This document shows, one piece after another, positions 11,711-20,545 of a stretch of 64,000 bases of DNA. The stretch lies in assembly GCF_001625445.1 (NCBI RefSeq), contig NZ_LWHG01000011.1:310001-374000 (forward strand). Reading direction: 5' to 3'. The DNA is from Haladaptatus sp. R4 (GTDB lineage Archaea > Halobacteriota > Halobacteria > Halobacteriales > Haladaptataceae). Numbering within the stretch: the stretch's first letter is position 1; every line of letters begins with the position of its first letter. The translations under genes were made by a program, and so were the position numbers. The notes under the pieces are model-generated. The model searched no databases and was not told the origin of the DNA. It saw only the letters and a list, made by a program, of their open reading frames with translations.

Positions 11711-13525
11711 GTGAATCCCGAGCGGATTTTAGACGAGTTCCCCGCACCTTCCTTCCGTGGCAACCAGCAGGAGGCGCTATCGGACATTCGGGAAGCGTTC
11801 GAGGGCGAAAACGACGTGGTGTTGGTTCGCGCACCGACGGGGAGCGGCAAGTCCCTGCTCGCTCGGGCGATTGCGGGGTGTGCACGACGGGTCGACGAGG
11901 CTGACCCCACCGATTCGACGGGGGCGTACTACACGACGCCGCAAGTCTCGCAGTTGGACGACGTGGCCGAGGACTCCCTGCTGGACGACCTCAAAATCAT
12001 TCGCGGGAAGCGAAACTACTCCTGTATCCTGCCGGGCGAGCACGACACGCCGGTCAATCGCGCGCCCTGTGCCCGCGAGAAGGGCTACGACTGCTCGGTG
12101 AGACATCGCTGTCCGTACTTCTCCGACCGCGCCATCGCCAGCAACCGGGAAATCGCGGCGATGACGCTGGCGTACTTCATGCGAACTGCTGGTTCGGAGG
12201 TGTTCCGCAAGCGCGACGTGGTGGTCATCGACGAGGCCCACGGACTCGCCGAATGGGCCGAGATGTACGCCGCCATCGATATAAACCCGCGGACGGTGCC
12301 GATCTGGGACGATATGAAGGTCCCCGAAATCACGGGTCTCGACAGGGCGGTGGAGTACGCGGAACGACTCGGCGGCACCCTCAAGCGACGAAAAGACGAC
12401 CTCGTGGCGCAACCGGAACTCACGCCCACGGAGGTCGCCCGCCGCGACCGGTTTCAGGAACTCGTCTCGGAACTGGACTGGTTCGTCGAAGACTACCGCA
12501 ACCCCGACAGCGCGACGGAGTGGGTCGTGGACCAACCGGACGGGAAGGGAACCGCGATCACCATCAAACCGATGAACCCCGAGCGGTACCTCGCCCACAC
12601 CGTCTGGGAACGGGGGAACAAGTTCGCGCTCCTCTCGGCGACGATCCTGAACAAGGAGGCGTTCTGTCGGCAGGTCGGTCTGGACCCGGACCGCGTCGCC
12701 CTCGTGGACGTCGGCCACACCTTCCCGGTGGAAAATCGGCCGCTGTACGACGTGACGCAGGGGAAGATGACGTACGAACACCGCGAGGACACGCTCCCGA
12801 AGATCGCGCGAACCATCGTCCGCGTCATGCAGGAGCATCCCGAAGAAAAGGGAATCGTCCACGCCCACTCCTACCACATCCAGCAGAAACTCGCCGAACA
12901 CCTCGACGCCTTCGGGGTCGGCGGACGGGTGCGCGCCCACGGTCGCGATTCGCGCGACGCCGACCTCGATTCGTGGAAGGCGACGGACGACCCGGACGTG
13001 TTCCTCTCGGTGAAGATGGAGGAGGCGCTCGACTTGAAGGGGGACCTCGCCCGCTGGCAAGTGCTCTGTAAAGCCCCGTTCCTGAACACCGGCGACTCGC
13101 GGGTCGCCCACCGACTCGAACACGGCCAGTGGGCGTGGTACTACCGCGCCGCGCTCCGCACCGTAATTCAGGGCTGCGGGCGCGTGGTCCGCGCCCCGGA
13201 CGACTACGGCGCGACGTATCTGGCCGACTCCAGCCTCCTGCAACTGTTCGACCGCGCCCGGACCGACATGCCCGACTGGTTCGCCGAACAGGTCGATCTG
13301 ATGTCGTACCCGGAACTCCCCGAGTTCGATCCCGGCGACGCGGGTGGCGACGGCAGTATCGGCGGCCTCGGCGGCGGAAGACATCGAACCGAATCGCCGA
13401 GCCAATCGACCGACGATCAGTCGCAGTCGAACTCCCAATCCAGCCAATCCCACCAATCCTCACGCTCGCGGCGTTCCGGCCGCAAAAAGAAGAGTCCGAT
13501 GGCGGACGTGTGGGACACCGAGTAG
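11711..13525 (+). CDS. DinG/XPD-like superfamily 2 DNA helicase with Fe-S cluster
   Basis: A 604-residue helicase. Motif I is APTGSGKS (about residues 41-48) and motif II is VIDEAHG (about 173). Between them four cysteines (CILPGEH, CAREKGYDC, RCPYF) match the Fe-S cluster domain of XPD/DinG enzymes. FALLSATIL is motif III, and VIQGCGRVVRAPDDYG is the nucleic-acid motif VI with its arginine finger. The C-terminal 65 residues are a disordered Ser/Gln-rich tail ending in a basic RRSGRKKK patch. It is a likely 5'-3' DNA helicase in repair. The start is GTG 11711, with a GTTTTAC box about 32 nt upstream. Confidence 0.9.
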   Translation: MNPERILDEFPAPSFRGNQQEALSDIREAFEGENDVVLVRAPTGSGKSLLARAIAGCARRVDEADPTDSTGAYYTTPQVSQLDDVAEDSLLDDLKIIRGKRNYSCILPGEHDTPVNRAPCAREKGYDCSVRHRCPYFSDRAIASNREIAAMTLAYFMRTAGSEVFRKRDVVVIDEAHGLAEWAEMYAAIDINPRTVPIWDDMKVPEITGLDRAVEYAERLGGTLKRRKDDLVAQPELTPTEVARRDRFQELVSELDWFVEDYRNPDSATEWVVDQPDGKGTAITIKPMNPERYLAHTVWERGNKFALLSATILNKEAFCRQVGLDPDRVALVDVGHTFPVENRPLYDVTQGKMTYEHREDTLPKIARTIVRVMQEHPEEKGIVHAHSYHIQQKLAEHLDAFGVGGRVRAHGRDSRDADLDSWKATDDPDVFLSVKMEEALDLKGDLARWQVLCKAPFLNTGDSRVAHRLEHGQWAWYYRAALRTVIQGCGRVVRAPDDYGATYLADSSLLQLFDRARTDMPDWFAEQVDLMSYPELPEFDPGDAGGDGSIGGLGGGRHRTESPSQSTDDQSQSNSQSSQSHQSSRSRRSGRKKKSPMADVWDTE

Positions 13526-13605: not shown

Positions 13606-14676
13606 ATGCACGAAACACGACGAACGATTCTCAAGACCATCGGCGGTATTGCGGGTGCTGGCGCGCTCTCCGGACAGGTGACTGCAAATCGAGCGTCTCG
13701 GCTTTCGGCGGCGGCGACGAAACCGGTGGCCGACTGGGCACCGGCGGACGAATCGAACTACAGCGAGGCGAACCGCGAATCCGACCTCGACATCTGGTGG
13801 TTCATCGTTCACGTCGCACAGGGCGACGCTGACGGCACCGTGAACTGGTTTCAGAATCCCAAATCGAACGTGAGCGCCCATTACGTCGCGGATCACCGGA
13901 CTGGCAATCTCACACAGCAGGTGGACGAGTCGGACATCGCGTGGCACGCCGGAAACTGGCCGTACAACCAGCATTCCATCGGTGTGGAACACTCGGGGTG
14001 GGTGGATCAGACGCAGTTTTCGGACGAACTATACGACGTCTCCGCGCGTCTCGTTCGCTGGGAAGCCACGAAATTCGACTTCCCGAAACGGGTTCGCCGC
14101 TACGATATCGCACCCTGCGACGCGATGGACGGTGAGGGCGGTATCATCGGCCACGTACAGGTTCCCGACCCGTACGACTGCTCGCAACCGGGCGGCATCA
14201 GCGGTCACACCGACCCCGGGTCGCTCTGGAACTGGGGCCGCTACGAGGGGTTCGTTCGGCGCTACGATATCGAATCCGGCGAGCACGCGGTGATGCTGTC
14301 CGACGACGCCGTCCATCACGGGGCCGACGGACGTTCGAGCACGCTGGATGTTCTGACAGGTGCGGTCGGCACCGCCACCGGAAACGTCCATGTCCACCAC
14401 GGTGAGCAGTGGTACAAACTCGCCTTCGGTGGGCGTCACGGATGGGTCGCCGCAACCGACCTGCTGTACGCCCGATTCGATTCGGGGTCCACAATCGAAA
14501 CCACGAGCGGGCTGAGCGTCAGGGACGAACCGAGCGATACCCGACTCGCAACCGTTCCGGAAGGTACCGCGGGAACGGTTGTGGACGGTCCGGTCGACAC
14601 CGGCGGCTACCGCTGGTGGAAGGTCGCCTACGAGGGCGGCGAAACCGGTTGGTCCGCCGGGTACTGGCTCAGATGA
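13606..14676 (+). CDS. secreted N-acetylmuramoyl-L-alanine amidase-like protein with SH3b repeats
   Basis: A 356-residue exported protein. ETRRTILKTIGG is a Tat-like leader. Residues about 45-215 are an Amidase_2 fold: H69 (IVHVAQG), H183 (IIGHVQVP) and D203 (GHTDPGSLWNW) fit the three zinc ligands of amidases ending in a DPGxxW motif; the PYNQHSIGVEHSG strand is also typical. Residues about 220-355 hold two SH3b-like units, each ending in GWVAATDLL or GWSAGYWL. The family cleaves the peptide stem from bacterial murein, a polymer archaea lack, so the target is probably bacteria or foreign wall debris. The ATG at 13606 is chosen over GTG 13600 because TTTATC at 13573-13578 gives leaderless spacing. 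Confidence 0.85.
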   Translation: MHETRRTILKTIGGIAGAGALSGQVTANRASRLSAAATKPVADWAPADESNYSEANRESDLDIWWFIVHVAQGDADGTVNWFQNPKSNVSAHYVADHRTGNLTQQVDESDIAWHAGNWPYNQHSIGVEHSGWVDQTQFSDELYDVSARLVRWEATKFDFPKRVRRYDIAPCDAMDGEGGIIGHVQVPDPYDCSQPGGISGHTDPGSLWNWGRYEGFVRRYDIESGEHAVMLSDDAVHHGADGRSSTLDVLTGAVGTATGNVHVHHGEQWYKLAFGGRHGWVAATDLLYARFDSGSTIETTSGLSVRDEPSDTRLATVPEGTAGTVVDGPVDTGGYRWWKVAYEGGETGWSAGYWLR

Positions 14677-14761
14677 GGGTGACCGCGTACGCCACTCCTG
14701 AGCCCAGCATCAGCAGGACGAAGAACAGCGAGATAAGCTTCTGTCGATCCATACCGGCCAT
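14669..14761 (-). CDS. possible 30-residue single-helix membrane protein
   Basis: MAGMDRQKLISLFFVLLM followed by LGSGVAYAVTLI forms one clean transmembrane helix with a basic N-terminal flank, ending just inside the 3' end of the amidase gene (8 nt convergent overlap). An in-frame longer version reaches 14950, but its extra N-terminus shows no coherent features. Short membrane peptides of this form occur in haloarchaea as I recall, but I cannot name a family. Low confidence that it is translated. Confidence 0.4.
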   Translation of the reverse strand: MAGMDRQKLISLFFVLLMLGSGVAYAVTLI

Positions 14762-14940
14762 ATGGTGCTCGATCTGATAAGTGTTGTTGACGATCGGTTT
14801 TGGAGCGGCCTCTTCCCCGTTCCTTTGTTGGCGCTGCAACCCGTTTAGCCGCGTGTTCCCCATCGTCCGAACGGGATTGAGTATTGTTAGCACACAATCG
14901 GTCGATTGAATACGGAACGGCGGAGACCCCCCCTGCATCG

Positions 14941-16016
14941 ATGAACCCACTTGCCGCCGTCGATACGAACGTGATCCTCTCGGGGAGAAGCGATTGGATC
15001 GGAACGGATACCGCGGAAACCCTCTCCGAGTATCCGTTGGAGTCCATCGAAACCGAGTTTCCCCACTTCGTCGGTTCCGTGGACTCCCCGAACGGGGTCG
15101 AACGGCCGAAGGAGCGACATCCGGTGTTTTTCGGCTGTTACGACTGGCACTCGTCGGTACACAGCCACTGGGCGTTGATCCGTCAACTTCGCCTGTTCGA
15201 CGACCATCCCGCGGAGTCCGAGATCAGAGCGCGTATCGGCGCTCGGTTTACGCCCGAGAACATCGAACGGGAGGTCGAATACTTCGAGGCCAACCCGTCC
15301 TTCGAGAAACCGTACGGGTGGGCGTGGCTCCTCCACCTCGCCTCGGAGTTATCTCGGTGGGAAGACGACGACGCGAACGAGTGGCGGTCGGTTCTCGTGC
15401 CGTTGGAACACGAGGTCGTGACCCTCGTCGAATCCGAGTTCCTCCCACAAAAACGCCCGTTCAGGGTTGGAACGCATCAAAACTCCGCGTTCGCTCTCCA
15501 CTGTATCCTCGATTATGCGAGAACGACGGACAACGAGTCGTTGGAAGCGGCCGTTTGCGAGACGGCAACCGAATTCTTCGTCGACGACCGCGACTATCCC
15601 GTCGAGTACGAACCCCTCGCGTGGGATTTTCTCTCCCCCGCGCTGACGGAGGCGGACCTCATGCGACGCGTCTACGGCCGTGACGAGTTGGAGGCGTGGC
15701 TCGACCGTTTCCTTCCGGACGTGACCACCGCCCCCACGAGACGATTCTCGAACCCGTTCACGTGGCGTCTAATCCGGACGAAGGTGTCGCACTGCATTTG
15801 GCCGGGCTCAACGTTTCGAAGGCGTGGTGTCTGGCGGGACTCGCGTCGGCCCTCGACGGACACCGATACGCCGATGTATTCGAGCGGAGTGCCAAGCGGC
15901 ATACTGAACGCGGCTTGAACCAGGCGTTCACCGACGACTACGCCGGGTCGCATTGGCTCTCGTCGTTCGTGCTGTACTTGCTCACCAGAAACGACGGCGG
16001 TATCGCACCGGCGTGA
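14941..16016 (+). pseudogene. DUF2891 family protein, single frameshift in a C5 run
   Basis: The first frame reads as a normal DUF2891 protein (HPVFFGCYDWHSSVHSHWALIRQL, FEKPYGWAWLLHLASEL, FRVGTHQNSAFAL) up to about FLPDVTTAP, then turns into Arg/Ser-rich nonsense to 15918. The correct C-terminus continues in another frame to 16016 (HVASNPDEGVALHLAGLN, SKAWCLAGLASALDGHR). One extra C in the run at 15731-15735 restores A-P-H-E and a 358-residue protein. DUF2891 proteins are soluble, probably alpha/alpha-toroid, and of unknown function. The intact codon bias on both sides suggests a recent event or a sequencing error rather than old decay. The start at 14941 is tentative. Confidence 0.8.
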
Positions 16017-16037: not shown

Positions 16038-17039
16038 TCACTCGATTCGCGCGTCCACCACGACGTGCCACACGCCTTCGCTGTGACTTTTCACGCGGCG
16101 CGTCTCCAGAATTTTCGCGTCCCGTCCCCGACTCTCCGCGGCCGATTCGAGTCGTGAAACCGGTCGTTCCCATAGTCGGTTTTCTGGCGTCGTCTCGTGC
16201 ATGTGAACGATGCCGCCGGGTTCGAGGGCGTCGAGCGCCGTGTCGAGATACTCGTGGGCGTCGTAGTAGCCCATGACGACGCGTTCGGCGCTCACGTCCG
16301 TCATCTCCCGGCAGTCGGCCCGGTAGGCGTCGATGCGACCCGGAACGTCGTTCAGCATCGCGTTCTCCACGAGGAACTTGAACGACGCCGGATTTCGCTC
16401 GACGGCCGTCACCTGCGCTCCGGCACGGGCCATCGGGAGCGTGAAGTAGCCGATTCCCGCGAACATGTCGAAGACGCGTTCGTCGGGGGAGACGACCTCG
16501 CCCATCCGGGCGCGTTCGCGCTGGTTGCCGGGCGCGAACATCACCTTTCGGAGGTCGAGTCCGTACTTCGTCCCGTGTTCGGTGTGGACGGTTTCGGTGT
16601 CCCCAGTCCCCGCGATAACGGTCACGTCGGGTTCCCGGTGCTCGCCGGAAATTCCGCCGCGGGCGAGGACGGTTTCGGCCTCGCCGTGCAGGTCGAGCAG
16701 TTCCTCGCCGACATCTTCGGGGCGGGGACAGTCGTCCAACTGGACGAGAATCACGCTGCCGATGACGGCCCACGATTTGGGTGCGCGCTGGAGTTCTTCG
16801 TCCGTCCACCCGCGCGCCGAAAGGAGCGCTTCGAGGTCAGTTCCTCGGCGCTCGGGGTCGTCCTGTTCGATGAGTTCCTCGATTTCGATTCCCGTCGGTC
16901 GCTCCGTCACCGGCAGTTCGACCAGTTCTTCGTCGTGTTCGCGGACCTTTCGGGAATCGTCGTAGACGCCTTCGGCTTCCAGTTCGCCGATGGTATCCTC
17001 CGCCTTCGGCTTTCGTACGAGAACGGCGAGGTCACGCAT
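16038..17039 (-). CDS. Trm5/TYW2-family tRNA methyltransferase-fold enzyme, probably Taw2
   Basis: A 333-residue enzyme with an N-terminal RNA-recognition region and a Rossmann SAM-binding core (VFDMFAGIGYFTLPMA; AVERNPASFKFLVENA). The later motif VVMGYYDAHEYLDTAL followed by GGIVHMHE resembles TYW2/Taw2, which transfers the 3-amino-3-carboxypropyl group of SAM to 4-demethylwyosine at position 37 of tRNA-Phe, more than Trm5, which carries an N-L-P motif there. I therefore favour Taw2, but Trm5 (m1G37) is the alternative. The ATG at 17039 overlaps the nmd3 stop by 8 nt, implying translational coupling. Confidence 0.7.
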   Translation of the reverse strand: MRDLAVLVRKPKAEDTIGELEAEGVYDDSRKVREHDEELVELPVTERPTGIEIEELIEQDDPERRGTDLEALLSARGWTDEELQRAPKSWAVIGSVILVQLDDCPRPEDVGEELLDLHGEAETVLARGGISGEHREPDVTVIAGTGDTETVHTEHGTKYGLDLRKVMFAPGNQRERARMGEVVSPDERVFDMFAGIGYFTLPMARAGAQVTAVERNPASFKFLVENAMLNDVPGRIDAYRADCREMTDVSAERVVMGYYDAHEYLDTALDALEPGGIVHMHETTPENRLWERPVSRLESAAESRGRDAKILETRRVKSHSEGVWHVVVDARIE

Positions 17040-18141
17040 CCGGAACCACGTACAGTCCGTCTCGACTCTTGAACACCGGCACCATCTCCGCGTCCTCGTC
17101 CATGTACGACGGTTTGGCAATCGTCTTCGTCTGGTACGTTTCGGGGTCGAGCACCTGCACCGCGTGTTCGTCCGTAACGGCGACCAGCGTCGTCTCCTCG
17201 GCGTCGTCGATGCTCCCCAACTTGCTGGCGTCGGCGGCGTCCTCGTTTCCGAACTTGGCCTCGTACTCCTCGCCGGTGGTAATCCGTCGACCCTTCAGGT
17301 TTCCTTGTACGCTCCTGACGAGAACTGGCCCGTCGTCGTCGGGACTGATGATGTCGCCAGGGGTGAACGGCGGCAGGCGGACGGCGTAGGTCACGCGATA
17401 CACTCCGTTGCCGTCCTCGTCCTCCGTGACGAGGGTTTCCGCATCGGAAAAGCTCCCGCCGAACTCCTCGACCAGTTTGCTCGAAATCTTCTTGCCGATA
17501 TTGGTGGTCGAGACCTTGATGTTCAGTCCGTCGGGCGTTTCGTCCATCTCGGTGACGAAGGCGTTCCGGTCGCCCGTTGCCTCCATGTCCGCGACGATTT
17601 CGTTGGCGATTTCTTTGGCCCGTTTTTCCTCCGTCGGGGTCGGCGTCCTATCGACGCCTCGAACCTGCACGATGCTGGCGTAGTAGTCGCCCGCAATCCG
17701 CCCACAGCGCGTACACGTCTGGCGGGCGATCATGACGGGAACCATGATCTCCTCCTCCATCAGCGTGTCACGGACCATCCCGGAGAAATAACAGTGCATC
17801 CGGATCGTGTTCGGATCGATCTGCTCGGGTTCCACCTGCCACGATACGTCGCGGGCATCGACGTGGACGGCGAGCGCTTCGCTCACTTCCTCGATGGCGA
17901 TGTCGGTGTAGTCGCGTGCGCCGACGTCGACCCATCGACGGCCGCGATAGACGGCACCGCACTGGGCACACACCCGAACCTCGATCCGCTCGGGGGCGTC
18001 CACGAGGTCGAAGCGGTCGAAATAACAGGAATCACAGAGCTTCCGCTCGCGCGGGGATGCGGACGTCGGATACTCCCGGTCCGTGATATCGACCTCGATG
18101 GGGTCGCCACAGTTCGGGCAGAATTCGCGAGAATCGGTCAT
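17032..18141 (-). CDS. NMD3 family ribosome-biogenesis protein
   Basis: A 369-residue protein. The N-terminus has the diagnostic paired zinc knuckles (FCPNCG, LCDSC, VCAQCGAVY, TCTRCGRIAG), followed by a beta-rich eIF5A-like region. Eukaryotic NMD3 is the 60S export adaptor; archaea have no nuclear export, so its archaeal role is probably late 50S maturation or anti-association. It is the first gene of a two-gene unit with the wyosine-type enzyme downstream (8-nt overlap). Confidence 0.9.
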   Translation of the reverse strand: MTDSREFCPNCGDPIEVDITDREYPTSASPRERKLCDSCYFDRFDLVDAPERIEVRVCAQCGAVYRGRRWVDVGARDYTDIAIEEVSEALAVHVDARDVSWQVEPEQIDPNTIRMHCYFSGMVRDTLMEEEIMVPVMIARQTCTRCGRIAGDYYASIVQVRGVDRTPTPTEEKRAKEIANEIVADMEATGDRNAFVTEMDETPDGLNIKVSTTNIGKKISSKLVEEFGGSFSDAETLVTEDEDGNGVYRVTYAVRLPPFTPGDIISPDDDGPVLVRSVQGNLKGRRITTGEEYEAKFGNEDAADASKLGSIDDAEETTLVAVTDEHAVQVLDPETYQTKTIAKPSYMDEDAEMVPVFKSRDGLYVVPDA

Positions 18142-19258: not shown

Positions 19259-19300
19259 GTGAACTACCCTGTCCTACTCGCTTCGCGTGCTGAGGACGGG
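19259..19300 (-). repeat. candidate right end of the TnpB element / guide-RNA 3' region
   Basis: Read on the minus strand, the 3' end of tnpB runs directly into GTCCTCAGCACGCGAAGCG, GAGTAGGACAGG and GTAGTTCAC. A C-terminus ending SPVLSTRSE overlapping a GC-rich structured right end is the usual arrangement of IS200/IS605-type TnpB elements, whose right end encodes the omega (re) RNA scaffold. The guide would be the flanking sequence just beyond TTCAC, i.e. positions below 19259 on this strand. The exact boundary is inferred. Confidence 0.5.
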
Positions 19301-20545
19301 ACTTCCTGCTTCCACGACGCGCTTTGCAGACACAACAGTGTCCATAGGGAGCGCAGTCTCCACAGGCGTTGACGAATCGCAGAGCGATTCGTTCGCCAAC
19401 CAGAAATCTTTGATTTCTGGTGACGTTGAATCGGAGTGAACCACTCCTACTTTGTCGATACCGCGAGATAGGATATTCCACGCCGCATTCGCGTCTCTGT
19501 CCGCTTCAAAACCGCAGGTGGGACAGGAGTGTTCACGGACCCACAACGGCTTATCCGTCTTCACACCACAGGACGCACATTCCTTCGTCGTGTTCCGTGG
19601 GTCTACAGCGACGAAGTACGTTCCTTCGCGTTCACACTTGTATTCGAGCATCCGGAGAAACGTACCCCATGCGGCGGCTGCTCGGTTGCGTGAATTTGAA
19701 TCGAACTGCATCATCCCGGCGACGTTCAAGTCTTCGACTGCTACGAGGTCATACTCTTTCGCGTAGTAGTTCGAGAGTTTGTGCAAGAAGTCACGGCGCT
19801 TCCGGCGGAGGTCGGCGTGGCACTCCGCAACGCGACGGCGTTGTTTCTCGTAGTTGTTCGACCCATGTTCCTTCCGCGAGAGCTTCCGTTGTTCGCGTTC
19901 CAGCCGCTCGCGTTCGTCCGAGAGATCGAGGCTCTTGATTGCATGTCCATCCGTGTCGTGAGCATACTTCAAGATACCCACGTCAATCCCGACGCACTTC
20001 TCGGGCGTCCTTGGTTTCTCGGGCGTTTCTTCGTCAACGTCGATAGCGAACGTGGCGAACCACTCACCCGTCGGTTCCCGCTTGACTGTGACCTGTTTAA
20101 TAGTCGCGTTCTCGGGGATATCTCGGTGGAGATGAATCGGTATCTCACCGAGTTTGCTCAACCACAATACTGGCCGACCGCTCGTATTCTTGAGCTTGAA
20201 GCCGGACTGGTTGTAGGTGAGCGAGTGGTAGTCACGAGGTCGCTTCCACTTGAGCATCCCAACGGCCCGTCCGTTCTCTTTCTGCGCTTTCAGCCTTGAC
20301 AGGTTGTCGTAGACGCGTTTGACGACCATCTGTAACACCTTCGAGTGAACGTCTCGGAGGTCGTCCCACCACGATTTGAGGTCAGGGAGTTGCCCCTGTA
20401 GCTCGTATCGGGCAGGTATCTCGTCAGATTCGTTGAACTTGAACAAGCAATGGTTGTACAGTTGCCGACAAATATCGACGTGGTACAGAAGCTCGTCGCG
20501 GATGGCATCTGTCGGTTGGAGTCGATATTTGTAGTTGTACTGCAT
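19274..20545 (-). CDS. tnpB: TnpB RNA-guided nuclease of an IS200/IS605 (IS1341-type) element
   Basis: A 423-residue intact protein. The RuvC triad is D188 (GIDVGI), E271 (AVEDLNV) and D351 (ADRDANAAWN). The zinc ribbon has C323/C326 (CASC) and C341/C344 (CPTC). The N-terminal YNYKYRLQPTDA opening is typical. No tnpA (Y1 transposase) is present on either side, so this is a solo TnpB element that must be moved in trans or be retained as a nuclease. All catalytic and zinc residues are kept, suggesting selection. Base composition is slightly less GC-rich than its neighbours. Confidence 0.92.
   Translation of the reverse strand: MQYNYKYRLQPTDAIRDELLYHVDICRQLYNHCLFKFNESDEIPARYELQGQLPDLKSWWDDLRDVHSKVLQMVVKRVYDNLSRLKAQKENGRAVGMLKWKRPRDYHSLTYNQSGFKLKNTSGRPVLWLSKLGEIPIHLHRDIPENATIKQVTVKREPTGEWFATFAIDVDEETPEKPRTPEKCVGIDVGILKYAHDTDGHAIKSLDLSDERERLEREQRKLSRKEHGSNNYEKQRRRVAECHADLRRKRRDFLHKLSNYYAKEYDLVAVEDLNVAGMMQFDSNSRNRAAAAWGTFLRMLEYKCEREGTYFVAVDPRNTTKECASCGVKTDKPLWVREHSCPTCGFEADRDANAAWNILSRGIDKVGVVHSDSTSPEIKDFWLANESLCDSSTPVETALPMDTVVSAKRVVEAGSPVLSTRSE

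Follow-up and report, generated by a model that had tools for sequence, protein, structure and literature searches.

Haloarchaea have no bacterial-type cell wall, and a gene for a murein-type amidase in one of them raises the question of what such an enzyme would act on and how its owner would profit. The window analysed here is a stretch of 64,000 nt from Haladaptatus sp. R4 (contig NZ_LWHG01000011.1, positions 310,001 to 374,000), the 4.9-Mb assembly of which is haloarchaeal (class Halobacteria, genus Haladaptatus). It contains such a gene, predicted to encode an amidase with a twin-arginine leader and two SH3b units (Table 1). We examined the product, its chromosomal site and its relatives, together with genes elsewhere in haloarchaeal genomes that bear on its role.

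The amidase and its predicted active site

The open reading frame delimited mechanically begins at GTG 13600; the likely start is ATG 13606, and the peptide MHETRRTILK also opens the orthologues in genomes G002, G004 and G005. Behind the TRRTILK motif follows a hydrophobic stretch with no lipobox Cys, as judged by eye from the sequence, and the leader can be aligned with those of short Tat amidases from haloarchaea and Streptomyces. No match of the window protein to the Pfam TAT_signal model was reported, the twin-arginine motif being seen by eye. Minus its leader, the protein is acidic (pI 4.9), which is expected for a haloarchaeal protein. Pfam searches detected both Amidase_2 (PF01510; E 9.4e-23, 81.4 bits vs. 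a cut-off of 26) and SH3_3 (E 4e-7, two stretches), and together with the twin-arginine motif they bear out the preliminary description, made from the sequence alone, of a putative exported Amidase_2/SH3b enzyme.

Table 1. Features at the amidase locus, with positions in the window
Feature	Position	Strand	Basis
Rad3-like helicase, left flank	11711..13525	+	present at site in all congeners
Tat-leader N-acetylmuramoyl-L-alanine amidase gene (predicted), Amidase_2 and two SH3b units, 356 aa	13606..14676	+	translation, Pfam, model
Twin-arginine leader, residues 1–28, TRRTILK motif	13606..13689	+	sequence; low confidence in model
Amidase_2 domain, residues 63–205	13792..14220	+	Pfam; AmpD fold
H69 codon, first zinc ligand	13810..13812	+	invariant in 26 sequences; aligned with AmpDh2
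E128 codon, catalytic Glu (AmpD E116)	13987..13989	+	invariance; profile alignment
H183 codon, second zinc ligand (AmpD H154)	14152..14154	+	invariance; profile alignment
D203 codon, third zinc ligand (AmpD D164)	14212..14214	+	invariance; profile alignment
First SH3b-like unit, residues about 227–290	14284..14475	+	Pfam, alignment, model
Second SH3b unit, residues about 296–355	14491..14670	+	Pfam, model
Small-protein reading frame, short, conserved, right flank	14669..14746	-	mostly at site, amidase present or not
Trm5-like methyltransferase (named from sequence), right flank	16038..17120	-	conserved at site

The zinc ligands proposed earlier (H69, H183 and D203) were numbered correctly. They and E128 are unchanged in all 26 Haladaptatus sequences compared, and a profile alignment places E128, H183 and D203 on their AmpD (1j3g) counterparts and H69 on the first His of AmpDh2; we take the zinc ligands of AmpD to be H34, H154 and D164. 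A profile search was required for the AmpD alignment, since a single-sequence phmmer search of the PDB gave no match. The position of AmpD K162 is occupied by His (H201), with Lys found only in the PG_binding_1 subfamily among the 26 sequences of the genus. Against the NCBIfam AmpD equivalog model the window protein scored 37.9 bits, below the cut-off of 143. Fold prediction, which had been suggested as a check, gave an AlphaFold model (mean pLDDT 87, pTM 0.85, from a 33-row alignment) that agrees with AmpD: the solved structure closest to the predicted fold is AmpD with its reaction products (Z 18.6, 2.2 Å, 152 residues), followed by phage and bacterial amidases. The C-terminus of the model forms two beta units with the boundaries of the SH3b units in Table 1. 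Short of an assay, the identity of the product as a predicted zinc amidase of the Amidase_2 family is close to certain.

In Halorussus, SH3b units of the same type are also part of GH18 and S15 hydrolases, and SH3b was therefore rejected as a mark of murein-directed enzymes only. The Tat GH18 proteins encoded at L211:1121-2797 and L212:1672-3327 of that genus each have two C-terminal SH3_3 stretches.

Chromosomal site and selection

The gene occupies one chromosomal site in six of the nine Haladaptatus genomes, including that of the window host; the orthologues, present in five of eight congeners and 71–74% identical, all lie between the Rad3-like helicase and the Trm5-like gene. In G006, G007 and G008 the flanks of the site are kept and the amidase is absent. 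Judged by the Nmd3-like flanking gene (92–96% for G006 and G008 vs. about 83% for the amidase carriers), the genomes most closely related are G006 and G008, from which it follows that the amidase gene was probably ancestral at this site and was lost more than once. In the orthologue of H. halobius (G003, L060:4141-5199) the leader region is broken by two stop codons, the rest of the frame being open. Whole-protein dN/dS values were 0.15–0.22 between the window gene and its orthologues and 0.13–0.18 among the other orthologues (0.06–0.21 for the amidase domain); the window gene is thus under purifying selection. The earlier remark that there is no obvious immunity gene holds for the neighbours, which have housekeeping functions (a Rad3-like helicase on the upstream side, Trm5/Nmd3-like genes on the downstream side).

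Two further reading frames were noted in the window. A DUF2891 gene (14884-16016, + strand), split into two frames by a frameshift, lies between the amidase and the Trm5-like gene and was not found at the amidase site in the congeners examined. An ORF at 19274-20545 (- strand) resembles, by eye, an IS200/IS605-type TnpB with a C-terminal zinc-finger motif.

Relatives and origin

Phages and firmicutes, named earlier as sources from which the gene might have been transferred, are not its nearest relatives. The best bacterial relatives are mostly Actinomycetota, many of them with an aligned Tat leader; the single-domain Tat amidases of this phylum, including those of Streptomyces, are about 38–45% identical to the window protein, and many align from residue 4, in the leader, to residue 217. 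Phage endolysins are about 30% identical, and the relatives on viral contigs are few (6) and weak. A quick tree placed the sampled bacterial cellular amidases on one side of a starred branch and several haloarchaeal clades on the other, with the phage endolysin apart on a long branch. As the bacterial rows were the best hits of a scan with the window query and the Streptomyces rows had been thinned, the donor and the number of transfers are not fixed by this tree; a single transfer from Actinomycetota is not demonstrated by bacterial rows that share one side of a branch and are query-biased best hits. A viral or phage origin was rejected in view of the weak relatives and the housekeeping neighbours, neither a viral neighbourhood nor close viral relatives, the marks of a phage endolysin, having been found.

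A set of putative wall enzymes

Haladaptatus carries a set of SH3b-fused wall enzymes, which adds to published work. In different proteins of the genus the SH3b unit is joined to Amidase_2, M23, SLT or Glucosaminidase domains, several of these fusions being called solely from BLAST to the window protein or from a Pfam match below cut-off. M23 with SH3b was found in ten Haladaptatus proteins (the frame at L063 being short), SLT with SH3b at L080 and L059, and Glucosaminidase with SH3b at L046, on contig C29 of the window host's genome. Other amidase subfamilies of the genus have either two PG_binding_1 domains or an amidase domain alone. SLT was above cut-off in eight of the nine Haladaptatus genomes, the exception being that of the window host, and Glucosaminidase was found in six of nine. 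On C29 of the window host (L046:3178-4902), a Tat Glucosaminidase-SH3b gene is directly upstream of a leaderless SH3b-Amidase_2 frame, an arrangement for which fusion, decay and frameshift are all candidate explanations.

In a profile search of 391 haloarchaea, Amidase_2 was present in 51, and amidase relatives counted from the match list occur in 23 of 28 Haladaptataceae genomes. The high-scoring M23 group (24 genomes) shares 19 genomes with Amidase_2 (p 1e-14); this p-value is indicative only, because the cut defining the group (E below about 1e-23) was picked by eye over the 391 haloarchaea after the scores had been seen.

The AnmK-NamZ neighbourhood

AnmK was searched for as a test of nutritional use. 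It was above cut-off in all nine Haladaptatus genomes, as a C-terminal stretch of only 113 residues in G005 and as two pieces in G000. Among the 391 haloarchaea, AnmK was found in 16 and NamZ in 17, including all 16 with AnmK; NamZ lies within the AnmK neighbourhood in 14 of these 16, and on the same contig at a distance in G081 (about 10 kb) and G154 (about 16 kb). In G001, AnmK and a NagZ-like GH3 protein exceed the NCBIfam cut-offs and the N and C domains of NamZ exceed those of Pfam, as do SBP_bac_5, BPD_transp_1 and ABC_tran with oligo_HPY in the transporter genes of the cluster. For MurQ (TIGR00274), only weak partial matches to the SIS region, below cut-off, were obtained in the nine genomes of the genus. 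The NagZ-like and NamZ proteins have no obvious leader at their start. The cluster also encodes c7 (L255:12609-13793 and relatives), a conserved protein about 390 aa long with many invariant His, Cys and Trp residues; it matched no Pfam family above cut-off, and the profile matches, 4s1a at E 5e-5 and Cwp19 at E 0.07, were weak. Tat GH18 genes also flank the cluster in Haladaptatus (e.g. L256:96-1358).

A tblastn comparison, in which 16 cluster proteins were searched against 22 AnmK neighbourhoods, revealed several arrangements: 1) AnmK, NamZ, GH3, PF00144 and c7 occur together in eight Haladaptatus (all except G005) and in G390, G281, G284 and G090, and where the examined stretch extends far enough these 12 neighbourhoods also show genes for a substrate-binding protein, permease or ATPase. 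2) G055, G174 and G173 have AnmK, GH3, NamZ, c7 and transporter genes, with no PF00144 match. 3) G287 has AnmK, GH3, NamZ, c7 and PF00144, with no transporter within the stretch. 4) NamZ and PF00144 are joined by a different substrate-binding protein in G278, G034 and G167, with no GH3 or c7 match near AnmK. 5) In G005, the region holds a 121-residue AnmK match, NamZ, c7, an SDR gene, a creatininase, a fragment of a substrate-binding protein and a HAD hydrolase. 6) AnmK adjoins a transporter in G154, and G081 shows the linkage Tat amidase - SDR - AnmK, plus a HAD hydrolase and a transporter. GH3 near AnmK was found in none of G154, G081, G278, G034, G167 and G005. Given this varying content, the region is a recurring neighbourhood with variants rather than one fixed operon.

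A Tat amidase is also linked to these genes on a plasmid of Halorussus vallis, where genes for the amidase, a serine hydrolase, a hypothetical protein, NamZ (DUF1343) and nagZ follow one another in the same direction, separated, according to the public annotation, by 84, 56, 98 and 7 bp. The array adjoins a gene for anhydro-N-acetylmuramic acid kinase (AnmK), the ABC transporter being encoded on the opposite strand, and its Tat amidase is annotated as a peptidoglycan recognition family protein.

The window gene itself, on contig C11, is not in the AnmK-NamZ cluster of its genome, which is on C3; a short amidase of the same genome (C21) shares a subtree with the cluster-linked amidases. At least six genes of the C3 cluster (L253, C3:68000-86000) are frameshifted in this assembly: ATPase, SBP, AnmK, PF00144, NamZ and GH3 each match in two or more pieces, the identity of which to intact relatives is mostly within the usual range. 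Either recent decay or read errors may have caused the frameshifts, and for the host of the window this fragmented cluster is where the case is weakest.

A brief search of a partial literature collection found no paper linking haloarchaea with AnmK or NamZ. The AnmK match in all nine Haladaptatus genomes, usually with NamZ and often with a NagZ-like GH3 and an oligopeptide importer, is a second addition to published work. For comparison with bacteria, we take ybbC to be NamZ and AmiE to be a PF00144 member.

Co-occurrence among haloarchaea

Four families (Amidase_2, M23, AnmK and NamZ) were run over the 391-genome set, AnmK and NamZ having been chosen to test the feeding idea and NamZ having been added once it was seen in AnmK neighbourhoods. 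Amidase_2 is present in 11 of the 16 AnmK genomes (Fisher p 2e-7, phylogeny and genome size being ignored) and in 12 of the 17 NamZ genomes (p 3e-8). Outside Haladaptataceae the corresponding counts are 5 of 10 (p 0.002) and 6 of 11 (p 3e-4); all these values treat genomes as independent. Forty of the 51 haloarchaea with Amidase_2 are without AnmK.

Possible role

That the substrate is foreign and bacterial, as claimed at the outset, appears likely. Antagonism and scavenging had been offered jointly as its use; scavenging is favoured by the AnmK-NamZ clusters of relatives, most of which also contain NagZ-like and importer genes and one of which, in Halorussus vallis, includes a Tat amidase. 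Three things point to feeding, perhaps by way of lysis: this neighbourhood, the sister Tat amidase linked to it, and co-occurrence across haloarchaea. On balance, we lean towards an exported zinc amidase that serves mainly the nutritional use of bacterial peptidoglycan.

Under this model, the Tat-exported, zinc-dependent N-acetylmuramoyl-L-alanine amidase would act outside the cell, stripping stem peptides off bacterial peptidoglycan while its SH3b units help to keep it on the wall, and the secreted Haladaptatus set (amidases, M23 endopeptidases, SLT transglycosylase and glucosaminidase) would jointly dismantle the sacculus. Fragments could then be imported by the oligopeptide ABC transporter and degraded by the cluster enzymes, i.e. 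the NagZ-like GH3, NamZ (exo-MurNAcase), the PF00144 hydrolase and AnmK. The host may gain access to this food by lysing living bacteria, killing and feeding being compatible. More tentatively, with expectations slightly below even, we extend the proposal to Haladaptataceae and scattered other haloarchaea, which may eat peptidoglycan by means of secreted Tat hydrolases (many with SH3b), an oligopeptide importer and NagZ, NamZ and AnmK, without MurQ, c7 possibly filling the missing step. If true, bacterial walls would be food for an archaeal lineage.

Alternatively, the enzyme could be secreted mainly to lyse rival bacteria, like Woldo and Danwoldo of Halogranum, with nutrients incidental. Killing by two haloarchaeal peptidoglycan hydrolases is documented (PMC12352652), and the absence of the gene from three congeners, its decay in a fourth and the many divergent paralogues are what arms-race gain and loss would lead one to expect. 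However, the same genomes contain the AnmK-NamZ cluster, physically linked to a sister amidase; amidase relatives are nearly universal in Haladaptataceae rather than patchy, and the neighbourhood of the window gene is a housekeeping one. We therefore regard a weapon as unlikely to be the main role, while still a serious candidate; given that the window gene has no link to the cluster and that AnmK is missing from most haloarchaea with Amidase_2, such a role is conceivable for both.

It is improbable that the target is something other than murein, e.g. an archaeal surface glycan or glycopeptide, the enzyme then acting in remodelling or signalling. The SH3b units on Halorussus GH18 and S15 hydrolases and the His in place of AmpD K162 would fit such a target, but no zinc ligand has been lost and the catalytic Glu is likewise retained, AmpD in complex with muropeptide products is the nearest relative of solved structure, the SH3b sister proteins bear M23, SLT and Glucosaminidase domains, for which murein is the common substrate, and NamZ and AnmK are MurNAc-directed families. 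Least of all do we expect a degenerating or viral passenger, an endolysin remnant with no host role, since the broken leader in H. halobius and the three empty sites are outweighed by purifying selection, the putative Tat leader, the lack of viral neighbours and the weakness of phage and viral-contig relatives.

Comparison with known systems

The window protein shares with AmpD and AmpDh2 the zinc ligands, the catalytic Glu and, in the model, the fold, but differs in being archaeal and in having a putative Tat leader, C-terminal SH3b units and His for K162. The single-domain Tat amidases of Actinomycetota are without SH3b units, and their producers, unlike the archaeal host, make peptidoglycan.

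In Bacillus subtilis, AmiE and NagZ of the murQRP-amiE-nagZ-ybbC cluster degrade released muropeptides (PMC5061867). This cluster and the haloarchaeal ones both combine nagZ and namZ with a further hydrolase. The haloarchaeal clusters differ in containing AnmK along with an oligopeptide ABC importer, and in lacking a MurQ match at cut-off. Lytic transglycosylases of the SLT kind yield 1,6-anhydroMurNAc products, the substrate of AnmK (PMC5061867).

Antagonism by protease precursors in haloarchaea was set aside as a different mechanism. Antibacterial murein hydrolases in archaea had been called an emerging idea; the idea stands, and is past emerging, since two haloarchaeal peptidoglycan hydrolases are already reported to kill bacteria (Strock 2025, PMC12352652). 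Woldo and Danwoldo of Halogranum salarium, as described there, are Tat-exported, as is predicted for the window protein, and resemble it in being haloarchaeal and composed of catalytic and wall-binding domains, but they combine M23 or glucosaminidase with PG_binding_1 rather than Amidase_2 with SH3b. The criterion applied in that study, a catalytic and a wall-binding domain in one protein, also describes the window protein (Amidase_2 and SH3_3). Its main text mentions neither Haladaptatus nor the name Amidase_2, and it leaves attack vs. murein scavenging unsettled, scavenging not being ruled out there. With a hydrolase set and AnmK-NamZ genes together in one genus, Haladaptatus makes that question directly testable.
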